Shown here one piece after another: positions 60,055 through 62,440 of a stretch of 64,000 nucleotides of DNA (position 1 is its first letter; the number at the start of each line of letters is the position of its first letter). The DNA lies in contig NC_017586.1 of assembly GCF_000240165.1 (NCBI RefSeq), forward strand, positions 1,674,001 through 1,738,000, in the 5' to 3' direction. The position numbers were made by a program, and so were the translations under genes. The DNA comes from Streptantibioticus cattleyicolor NRRL 8057 = DSM 46488. GTDB lineage: Bacteria > Actinomycetota > Actinomycetes > Streptomycetales > Streptomycetaceae. Below the pieces are notes generated by a model. That model had not been told where the DNA came from, ran no database searches, and worked only from the letters and a program-made list of their open reading frames with translations.

Positions 60055-61044
60055 CTACCCGCGGCGGGAGCGGGCGGCGCGGGAGATGGTGACCACGGCC
60101 TTCTCCAGGGCGTAGGCGGGGTCGGCCCCGGCGCCCTTGACCGCGGCGTCGGCCTCGGCGACCGCGCGCAGCGCCATGGCGACCCCGTCCCCGGACCAGC
60201 CGCGCATCTGCTGCCGTACCCGGTCGATCTTCCAGGGCGGCATGCCGAGTTCGCGGGCGAGATCGCCGGGGCGGGCGCCGCGCGGGGCGGTGGCGAGCTT
60301 ACCGATGGCGCGGACGCCGGAGGCCAGCGCGAAGGTGATGCCGGGCAGCGGCTGGCCGACCGCCAGCGCCCAGCGCAGCCGCTCCAGCGCCTCGGCGGTG
60401 CGTCCGGTGACCGCGAGGTCGGCCACCTCGAAGCCGGTGGCCTCGGCGCGGCCGGTGTAGTAACGGGCGACCACGGCCGCGTCGACGGTGCCCTCGACGT
60501 CGGCGCCGAGCTGGGCGCAGGCGGAGGCCAGCTCCCGCAGGTCGCTGCCGATCGCGTCCACCAGCGCCTGGCACGCCTCGGGGGTCGCCGAACGCCCGGC
60601 GGTACGGAACTCGGCGCGCACGAACGCCAGCCGGTCGGCGGGCTTGGTCAGCTTCGCGCAGGCGACCTCGCGGGCGCGGGCCTTGCGGGCGGCGTCGAGC
60701 AGCCCCTTGCCCTTGGCGCCGCCGGCGTGCAGCAGGACGAGGGTGATCTCCTCCGCGGGGGCGTCGAGGTAGCCCTTGACGTCCTTGACGGTGTCCGCCG
60801 ACAGGTCGTGCGCGTTGCGGACGACGACGACCTTGCGTTCGGCGAAGAGCGAGGGGCTGACCAACTCGGCGAGCGTGCCGGGCTGGAGGGCGTCCGGGGT
60901 CAGGTCGCGCACGTCGGTGTCGGGGTCGGCCGCGCGGGCGGCGGCCACCACCTCGGCGACCGCGCGGTCGAGCAGCAGGTCCTCCTGGCCCACGGCCAGG
61001 GTGACCGGGGCCAGCACGTCGTCGGTCGAGCTCTTCTTCGCCAT
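60055..61044 (-). CDS. holA: DNA polymerase III subunit delta
   Basis: A 329-residue clamp-loader subunit that opens the beta clamp. The N-terminal AAA+-like domain has no functional Walker A; conserved pieces are GQEDLLLDRAV, LFAERKVVVVRNAH and GSDLRELASACAQL. The C-terminal helical domain includes GRTAEALERLRWAL and LGMPPWKIDRVRQQMRGW. ATG at 61044 is preferred over the much longer frame. Confidence 0.94.
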   Translation of the reverse strand: MAKKSSTDDVLAPVTLAVGQEDLLLDRAVAEVVAAARAADPDTDVRDLTPDALQPGTLAELVSPSLFAERKVVVVRNAHDLSADTVKDVKGYLDAPAEEITLVLLHAGGAKGKGLLDAARKARAREVACAKLTKPADRLAFVRAEFRTAGRSATPEACQALVDAIGSDLRELASACAQLGADVEGTVDAAVVARYYTGRAEATGFEVADLAVTGRTAEALERLRWALAVGQPLPGITFALASGVRAIGKLATAPRGARPGDLARELGMPPWKIDRVRQQMRGWSGDGVAMALRAVAEADAAVKGAGADPAYALEKAVVTISRAARSRRG

Positions 61045-61118
61045 CGCGCTCCAGCATCCCACGCCCCACCGACATCCCCCCGAACGGCCTGGTCGGCGGC
61101 TGTGCAGAATGTGTGTTC

Positions 61119-61364
61119 GTGAGCAATGTTCGACATGTATTGGTGCTTCCCGACCGCGACGCGGCCCACGAGGCGGCCGAGGAAGCCGTCTCCCGCTTCG
61201 GCCTGGACGACGACCCCGACATCGTGCGCGAGGCACTGGCCGGCGAGGACGACGCCGAGGACGCCCAGTGGCTGGTGGTGATCGAGGACGAGCCGGGCGA
61301 ACTCGACCCCGCGGAGCTGGAGTCGCTGGCCGAGGAGTACGACGGCTGGCGCGAGGAGGAGTGA
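61119..61364 (+). CDS. Small acidic protein, unknown function
   Basis: An 81-residue protein, about a third Asp/Glu. It begins SNVRHVLVLPDRDAAHEAAEEAV and ends LAEEYDGWREEE. GTG at 61119 is preferred; GTG at 61113 is an alternative. CAGAAT eight bases upstream may be a -10 for a leaderless message. It is divergent from holA and lies directly before the MITE-like element. I recognise no domain. Confidence 0.75.
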   Translation: MSNVRHVLVLPDRDAAHEAAEEAVSRFGLDDDPDIVREALAGEDDAEDAQWLVVIEDEPGELDPAELESLAEEYDGWREEE

Positions 61365-61401
61365 CGTCCGGCCCCGCACGCGGCGTCCGGGTCCTACGCC
61401 C

Positions 61402-61900
61402 TGTCGTCAAAAGGTCGCCGGCCGCCCGGAGGGCGGTGCCCCGCGGCGTCCGGGGGTAACCCCAGGCGAAGCTGAAGGGGGAGCGTGTGATCGCAAGGCG
61501 GAGGGCGGAGAGCCCAGCGGGCTGCATCGGAGGGCGAGCCGAGCTGAGGCGGAGGTTGGGGGTCGGCCCGAGGGACGAGGGCCGGGCCCCGGCCGCAGCC
61601 GAAGCGAGGCGGAGCCCGACCATCCGGCCCCGCAGGGCGAGCCGAGCTGAGGCGGAGGTTGGGGGTCGGTCCGAGGGACGAGGGCCGGGCCCCGGCCGCA
61701 GCCGAAGCGAGGCGGAGCCCGACCATCCGGCCCCGCAGGGCGAGCCGGGCTGAGGCGGAGGTTGGGGGTCGGTCCGAGGGACGAGGGCCGGGCCCCGGCC
61801 GCAGCCGAAGCGAGGCGGAGCCCGACCGTGCGGGCCGACGACCGACAACGCCGCGAGCGCCCGTGCCGGGCGCCGCGGGGCAGGCGAGATGTTGACGACA
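61402..61900. mobile_element. MITE-like non-autonomous element with 12-bp target duplication
   Basis: A 499-bp element with terminal inverted repeats TGTCGTCAA (61402-61410) and TTGACGACA (61892-61900). The ends share a further TCGCC and TGCCCCGCGGCG with CCGG, offset on the left by a 17-base insert. Identical direct repeats GGTCCTACGCCC flank it at 61390-61401 and 61901-61912. The termini read TG...CA. The inside has no transposase frame but contains the 103-bp tandem array. The 618-bp gap between neighbouring genes is almost wholly this element. IS481-type elements can give duplications of this length; the family is not proven. Confidence 0.75.
61532..61828. repeat. 103-bp tandem repeat, about 2.9 copies
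   Basis: Copies start at 61532, 61635 and 61738, period 103. They differ by single bases such as GGTCGGCCCG against GGTCGGTCCG and GAGCTG against GGGCTG. The third copy ends near 61828. It contains the self-complementary GGGCCGGGCCCCGGCC. No spacer structure is present, so it is not CRISPR. It lies wholly inside the MITE-like element. Confidence 0.95.
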
Positions 61901-61981
61901 GGTCCTACGCCCCAGGTCCCGGCGCCGGTCCCGCCTCCGGCCGGATCCCCGCCGCCCGGGGCGGCCGGTAGCGTCGCGATC

Positions 61982-62440
61982 ATGACGCACCCCGAGAGCC
62001 CCCGGAGCCTGGCCCTGCGCAAGCGGCAGGCGCTGCACCGCCTCGACCACGACCAGGACGTCTGGGTCGCCACCGCGGACGGCGACGGGGTGCCGTGCCT
62101 GGTGCCGCTGTACTTCTGGTGGGACGGCCACGCGGTGTGGATCGCCACCCGCGGCACCAACCCCACCGGGGTCAACCTGAGCCGCTCCGGCCTCGCCCGG
62201 CTCTCCTTCGGCCACACCCGCGACGTCGTGCTGATGGCCGGCACCGCCACCGACTTCGCCCGCGACGGACTCCCCGCCGGGGTGGGCGACGCCTTCGCCG
62301 CCAAGTTCGGCTGGGACCCCCGTGAGGACCACCCCTCCTACCGGTACTTCCGGATCGTCCCCGAGCTGATCCAAGCCTGGGGCACCGTCGCGGAAATGGC
62401 CGACCGCACCCTGATGCGCGACGGGCGGTGGCTGTTGTGA
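61982..62440 (+). CDS. PPOX-fold (pyridoxamine 5'-phosphate oxidase-like) protein
   Basis: A 152-residue split-barrel flavin or F420-binding protein. ALHRLDHDQDVWVATADGDGVPCLVPL is the N-terminal strand pattern (in part DVWVATADGDGVP), WIATRGTNPTGVNLSRS and RLSFGHTRDVVLMAGTA follow. It likely reduces or oxidises a small substrate with F420 or FMN. ATG at 61982 lies seven bases after TAGCGT, a leaderless arrangement. Just 3' of the MITE-like element. Confidence 0.88.
   Translation: MTHPESPRSLALRKRQALHRLDHDQDVWVATADGDGVPCLVPLYFWWDGHAVWIATRGTNPTGVNLSRSGLARLSFGHTRDVVLMAGTATDFARDGLPAGVGDAFAAKFGWDPREDHPSYRYFRIVPELIQAWGTVAEMADRTLMRDGRWLL

Follow-up and report, generated by a model that had tools for sequence, protein, structure and literature searches.

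A probable IS5-type MITE with a tandem hairpin insert in Streptantibioticus cattleyicolor

The element and its target site

The window, which is the whole stretch of 64,000 nucleotides of the Streptantibioticus cattleyicolor genome analyzed here, contains a 509-bp element located between two TA dinucleotides (Table 1). A first-pass annotation, made from the letters alone, had described it as a MITE-like sequence with terminal inverted repeats, a 12-bp target duplication, and no transposase. The last point is borne out at the Pfam level, as the three long frames that run across the element gave no transposase match, their sole Pfam matches belonging to a DNA polymerase III delta gene outside of it. 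The terminal inverted repeats are present as well, but the termini are longer than described and reach, in the form GGNCCTGTCGTCAA, up to a TA. The outermost left base of the window copy is a C, whereas the family has a G.

Table 1. Positions of the window copy and its parts
Feature	Position in the window	Strand	Remarks
Whole MITE copy	61397..61905	+	509 bp, between both TA dinucleotides
Left TA	61395..61396	none	presumed target duplication (CTA/CGCCC, cut after TA)
Right TA	61906..61907	none	presumed target duplication (GGTCC/TAC, cut before TA)
Left terminal repeat	61397..61410	+	CGCCCTGTCGTCAA; family form GGNCCTGTCGTCAA, first base different
Right terminal repeat	61892..61905	-	minus strand reads GGACCTGTCGTCAA
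Left 12-mer	61390..61401		GGTCC + TA + first five bases of the element
Right 12-mer	61901..61912		last five bases of the element + TA + CGCCC
Tandem insert	61526..61833	+	308 bp; missing in hairpin-free siblings (junction comparison, repeats)
Hairpin unit 1	61531..61621	+
Hairpin unit 2	61634..61724	+
Hairpin unit 3	61737..61827	+

The 12-mer GGTCCTACGCCC is identical at 61390-61401 and 61901-61912. Next to it lie the inner ends TGTCGTCAA (61402-61410) and TTGACGACA (61892-61900), and the copy thus reads GGTCC-TA-CGCCC-TGTCGTCAA ... TTGACGACA-GGTCC-TA-CGCCC. Since the CGCCC of the left 12-mer and the GGTCC of the right one are the ends of the element, the 12-mer is no plain target duplication. 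Most copies of the family keep CTAGGNCC on both sides, outside TGTCGTCAA.

The flanks were compared in 105 pairs of ends, namely the pairs with distinct flanks from loci L001-L287. This set is uncurated and holds a few chance or distant pairs (e.g., L209, L180, and L231 at 4020), with four pairs that have TGTCTTCAA ends among such examples. A TA adjoins the element at the left end in 86 of the 105 pairs, at the right end in 88, and at both ends in 71. A C before and a G after the TA (CTAG) were found in 65 of these 71 pairs. Five of the six remaining pairs keep the G and C ends of the element while the outer bases differ, and a 2-bp TA duplication therefore fits them better than a 4-bp duplication. 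The sixth is the window copy with its outermost C, which alone also fits a 4-bp CTAC duplication. Twelve identical flank bases out of 12 occur only in the window copy (1/105); no pair has 11 and six pairs have 10. The 12-bp target duplication was rejected on this count and on the overlap of the 12-mer with the element's own ends. The 12-bp repeat is therefore explained as element ends plus TA plus a resemblance of the flanks that is partly coincidence. The target duplication is most likely the TA inside CTAG, as also suggested by a filled and empty pair of sites of a sibling MITE described below, and for the window copy a TA duplication appears to be the best fit. At L149:4062-4131, L270:590-605, and L183:1415-1430, elements adjoin each other with common CCTAGG ends, as if a restored CTAG had been a new target.

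Copies, element-free loci, and stop codons

A search of the S. cattleyicolor genome, as proposed in the first-pass annotation for the termini and inner ends, returned 44 BLAST matches with the element as query, and at least 11 two-ended copies of one common architecture are present. Hairpin-free copies measure 199 bp (L012 and L013), 201 bp (L015 and L016), and 173 bp (L017), and longer copies 296 bp (L010), 259 bp (L011), 639 bp (L009), and 509 bp (the window copy), while L023 and L027 are short, with 72 and 53 bp. Single-ended fragments were added by a search with a 209-bp stretch around the L012 copy. Identity to the window core is 80-93% for the five full siblings that lack the hairpin, which argues that the copies are not recent. 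Moreover, TA is kept on both sides in only four of the 10 paired copies compared in this genome. Together with the changed left end base, these values speak against the earlier view of the window copy as fresh.

In the family, the exact end pattern TAGGNCCTGTCGTCAA was found in 47 of 297 genomes (S. cattleyicolor included) and in five of 17 genera, with up to 31 matches in one genome; the reversed control yielded 15 matches, spread over 14 genomes (manual count). When up to three mismatches were allowed in the S. cattleyicolor genome, the end pattern was rarer than its reversed control (56 versus 199), and exact or near-exact matches and pairing were therefore relied on. With a looser end pattern, 11 matches were obtained, and with its control seven. 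Among the matches listed, at least 118 loci were counted, of which 84 are titled Streptomyces and 26 are non-actinobacterial, mostly single ends; the phage records searched gave no match. Pair lengths of 172-175 bp are seen in 46 of the 105 pairs and of 50-80 bp in 15. Ends like GGGCCTGTCGTCAATTCAG occur in two Verrucomicrobia MAGs (L202:4625-4775, paired, and L252:1059-1494), and judging from these sequences such ends may exist outside actinobacteria. Related MITEs with other ends, for example CTAGGCCGTGTCTTCAAA, CTAGGTCGTGTCTGGCAAAT, and TAGGGCCTGTTGCGAAGG, were observed at L040-L043, L045, and L046 (genomes G005, G006, G031, G020, G044, and G047), and each helper IS perhaps has a MITE type of its own.

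An element-free version of the window locus is present in G023, a genome of the same family and of another genus (g9, to which most sampled family genomes belong). Here, the flanks match at 90166-90433 and 90463-90845 and are separated by 29 bp versus 566 bp in the window. The sequence of G023 at this place includes CCTAGGTCC, and the alignment is too loose for a base-exact insertion point; the empty-site comparison proposed earlier thus yields an element-free locus but no insertion placed to the base. Among the matches listed for the relatives of G189, no genome had both flanks at one place. An arrangement with all orthologous loci filled, no other copies, and no empty site, which had been set against the transposon reading in the first-pass annotation, is accordingly not what was found.

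A base-exact comparison is available for a sibling MITE with GGGCGTGTTTTAGAAG ends, which was found by similarity search on Streptomyces atratus plasmids (L340) and is missing from five related plasmids. Its filled site reads GGTCCGC-TA-GGGCGTG...CACGCCC-TA-GGGCCTT and the empty site of NBC_00984 reads GGTCCGCTAGGGCCTT. In this pair the TA is duplicated; the sibling's ends differ from those of the window family. In the four other plasmids the sequence diverges too far beyond the stop for the junction to be seen, and one of these, S. nigrescens, has TGA at the position of the TAG. Plasmid flank searches gave no empty sites for L338, L336, and L337 among the matches listed.

The TA of the sibling MITE lies in the TAG stop of an annotated gene, and the first G of the element restores the TAG. 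The restored stop can be seen by comparing the filled L340:1481-1530 with the empty L341:781-840. A flank was counted as stop-like when a coding-like open frame of 60 codons ends at the TAG. By this rule, stop-like flanks make up 60 of the 170 MITE flanks, whereas other CTAG sites of these loci have 24 among 186 flanks and random positions 281 among 2060; at least one stop-like flank is present in 57 of the 101 elements. The Fisher P values, about 8e-7 against the other CTAG sites and 2e-11 against random positions, are optimistic because related copies, which are not independent, were counted. Survival of such insertions, and not targeting, may account for the excess. The window copy itself does not belong to these cases, as the 83-aa frame upstream of it stops at 61364, short of the element.

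The tandem hairpin insert

The first-pass annotation had omitted that the window copy carries, as its insert of 308 bp at 61526-61833, a tandem array of three 103-bp units. These units account for the extra 308 bp of the copy relative to its 201-bp siblings. At the insert site the hairpin-free siblings read GGGCTGCGCCGACG. The window copy shares its left junction (GGGCTGC/ATCGG) with L009 and L010 and its right junction with L009. The number of units is three in the window copy, four in L009, one in L010, and one in the rearranged L011, and the five full siblings have none. These common junctions point to a single acquisition, after which the lineage would have spread and the number of units changed.

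The unit is also found outside MITEs. In the S. cattleyicolor genome this applies to L014, L019, and L020 and in part to L018 and L021, and L037, L038, and L039 from other genera carry tandem arrays of it. Besides these, loci with the hairpin unit are L044, L380, L382, L384-L387, L402, and L406. The unit folds as a strongly covarying hairpin. In an alignment of 14 distinct sequences, eight of the 21 base pairs are changed on both sides, compared with a mean of 3.0 (SD 1.1) in shuffles, none of 500 of which reached eight, and with 0-2 in slid controls. A second alignment, of 15 distinct sequences from 14 loci obtained by a model search, has 14 of 21 pairs changed on both sides; this alignment is fitted to the model, which had itself been built with the help of one of the 14 loci (L377, at the place of L020). 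Its controls gave 7.7 (SD 1.5) in shuffles, with none of 500 reaching 14, and 0-5 when slid. With this model (R1) the unit was detected in 11 of 61 genomes (S. cattleyicolor included) and seven of 30 genera, all of the same family, five of the 11 positive genomes having supplied sequences to the model. No Rfam match was obtained up to E = 1 for positions 61000-62300 of the window. Gene ends lie beside the hairpins, on one side or the other, at eight of 18 loci, a count made without a control.

The internal loops of the unit are GA-rich on the given strand and CT-rich on the other, which points to the given strand as the folding one. Tentatively, the 103-bp unit could be an as yet undescribed structured repeat of the Streptomycetaceae, folding into a long hairpin whose internal loops are symmetric and GA-rich; it would be amplified in tandem, act as RNA or single-stranded DNA, and have hitch-hiked into, and spread with, a MITE lineage of this species. 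We consider this model possible and still rather doubtful.

Candidate helper elements and interpretation

An autonomous IS with the same ends was sought among the loci with the end pattern; the search covered L096 and L117-L225, with L226-L263 outside its range. In the examined loci, 53 of 153 ends have no partner within about 320 bp. Among these unpartnered ends, a recurrent IS was found, with a length of 896 bp at L149 (S. fimicarius) and 900 bp at L167 (Streptomyces sp. SDr-06), the two being 84% identical over 895 bp. Relatives occur at L182 and L132, and the contig edges of L160 and L205 show the same start. The ends of the IS have three and one mismatches to the pattern in L149 and two and zero in L167. 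In both, the transposase consists of two overlapping frames. The two transposase parts score 128 and 149.9 bits against NF033580 (transpos_IS5_3), above its cut-off of 110, and also match PF13340 and PF01609, which makes the candidate helper the carrier of an IS5-type DDE transposase. This IS may belong to the IS427 group, whose layout is two overlapping frames joined by a frameshift. At L182:7341-7834, a 494-bp form of the IS keeps both ends and has lost part of the transposase region; judged from its sequence, it is possibly a step from IS to MITE.

In the S. cattleyicolor genome, 30 places match NF033580, six of them above the cut-off, and a query with part of the transposase gave four matches. 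At the examined loci (14 of the 30 places and the four matches), no helper with ends within three mismatches of TAGGNCCTGTCGTCAA was found. The ends present at the examined IS5-type loci are of other kinds, for example TAACTGATCGTTTCAGAATG and TAAGGGCTGTCCCGTA, and a single end-like site with four mismatches is present at L357, where the transposase match is partial. Most of the remaining 16 places correspond to further copies of the 260-aa type that L362 and L375 represent. This recurrent 260-aa IS5-like transposase frame is found at C1:1029303, C2:2414315, and others, and its two examined copies have TAAGGGCTGTCCCGTA ends. The expectation of an autonomous IS with the same ends is thus supported by near-identical ends in other Streptomyces but not by the loci examined in S. 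cattleyicolor, where the copies look orphaned. They probably moved under an earlier helper and would now be relics.

The element is best read as a non-autonomous DNA transposon (MITE) of the IS5 type, to which we assign a probability of about 0.87, probably a gene-less element moved by the enzyme of another element. The MITE claim of the first-pass annotation holds up well here, as the sequence is multi-copy, has inverted ends and no transposase domain, shares its ends with a transposase-bearing IS, and is missing from some loci. The perfect 12-mer on both sides of the window copy would also agree with the core TGTCGTCAA...TTGACGACA being the element and a transposase of another family having made a genuine 12-bp duplication. 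This is very improbable because the other copies keep GGNCC and TA rather than 12 bases, as underlined by the single 12/12 case among the 105 pairs. A TA target alone names no family, and the MITE might have been moved by another TA-targeting family (e.g., IS630/Tc1-like) or by way of a 4-bp CTAN duplication, given that a CTAC duplication with GNCC ends fits the window copy with no mutation needed. We regard both variants as unlikely, since the IS with near-identical ends carries an IS5-family transposase and five of the six non-CTAG pairs with TA on both sides fit 2 bp better.

Strong folding of 61402-61900 (z -4.06), the frequent position at stop codons, and the conserved hairpin units are what a host structural repeat (REP- or terminator-like) without any mobile element would lead one to expect. 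It is, however, scarcely credible in view of the TA/CTAG flanks, the loci with and without the element, the ends in common with a transposase-bearing IS, and the patchy occurrence. For the IS5-type MITE, the mechanism we infer is that an IS5-family transposase acting in trans would recognize the ends and that insertion at CTAG would duplicate the TA, the copies probably having moved while a helper was present. One lineage would then have gained the 103-bp hairpin unit at one internal site and spread, with the unit number changing to one, three, or four, presumably by slippage or unequal recombination.

Like the MITEs of the IS5 family (model NF033580), the element is short, lacks a transposase, and has IS5-type inverted ends and CTAG/TA insertion; unlike them, a helper with matching ends was not found at the loci examined in its own genome. 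According to the respective report, the IS5 of Escherichia coli prefers CTAG-like targets and duplicates 4 bp with the consensus C(A/T)A(G/A) (PMC11677980), whereas a 2-bp TA duplication fits the window family better. For the archaeon Haloquadratum walsbyi, the published account describes MITEs that have few terminal bases in common with their transposon, some of them without an intact transposase in the genome (PMC3119063); they are likened to the window family by description, not by sequence. BrickBuilt of Porphyromonas gingivalis is described as a MITE with a tandem minisatellite of a 23-nt unit and with terminal repeats similar to those of IS elements, among them one listed as IS5 family (PMC4596501). 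The window MITE likewise has a variable tandem repeat inside inverted ends, a likeness of layout and not of sequence; instead of a 23-nt unit it carries a 103-bp covarying hairpin, which also occurs outside MITEs in other genera. In the open-licence literature, covered by partly narrow searches, no description of a MITE family with these ends or of the hairpin was found. The kind of MITE is ordinary and a minisatellite within a MITE is known from BrickBuilt, and the hairpin family is the newer part.

With these results, Streptomyces genomes gain a widespread MITE family, its likely helper IS, and a CTAG target rule. Insertion at a stop codon that restores the stop may make insertions harmless. 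Finally, a covarying hairpin repeat would have been picked up and multiplied by a mobile element.
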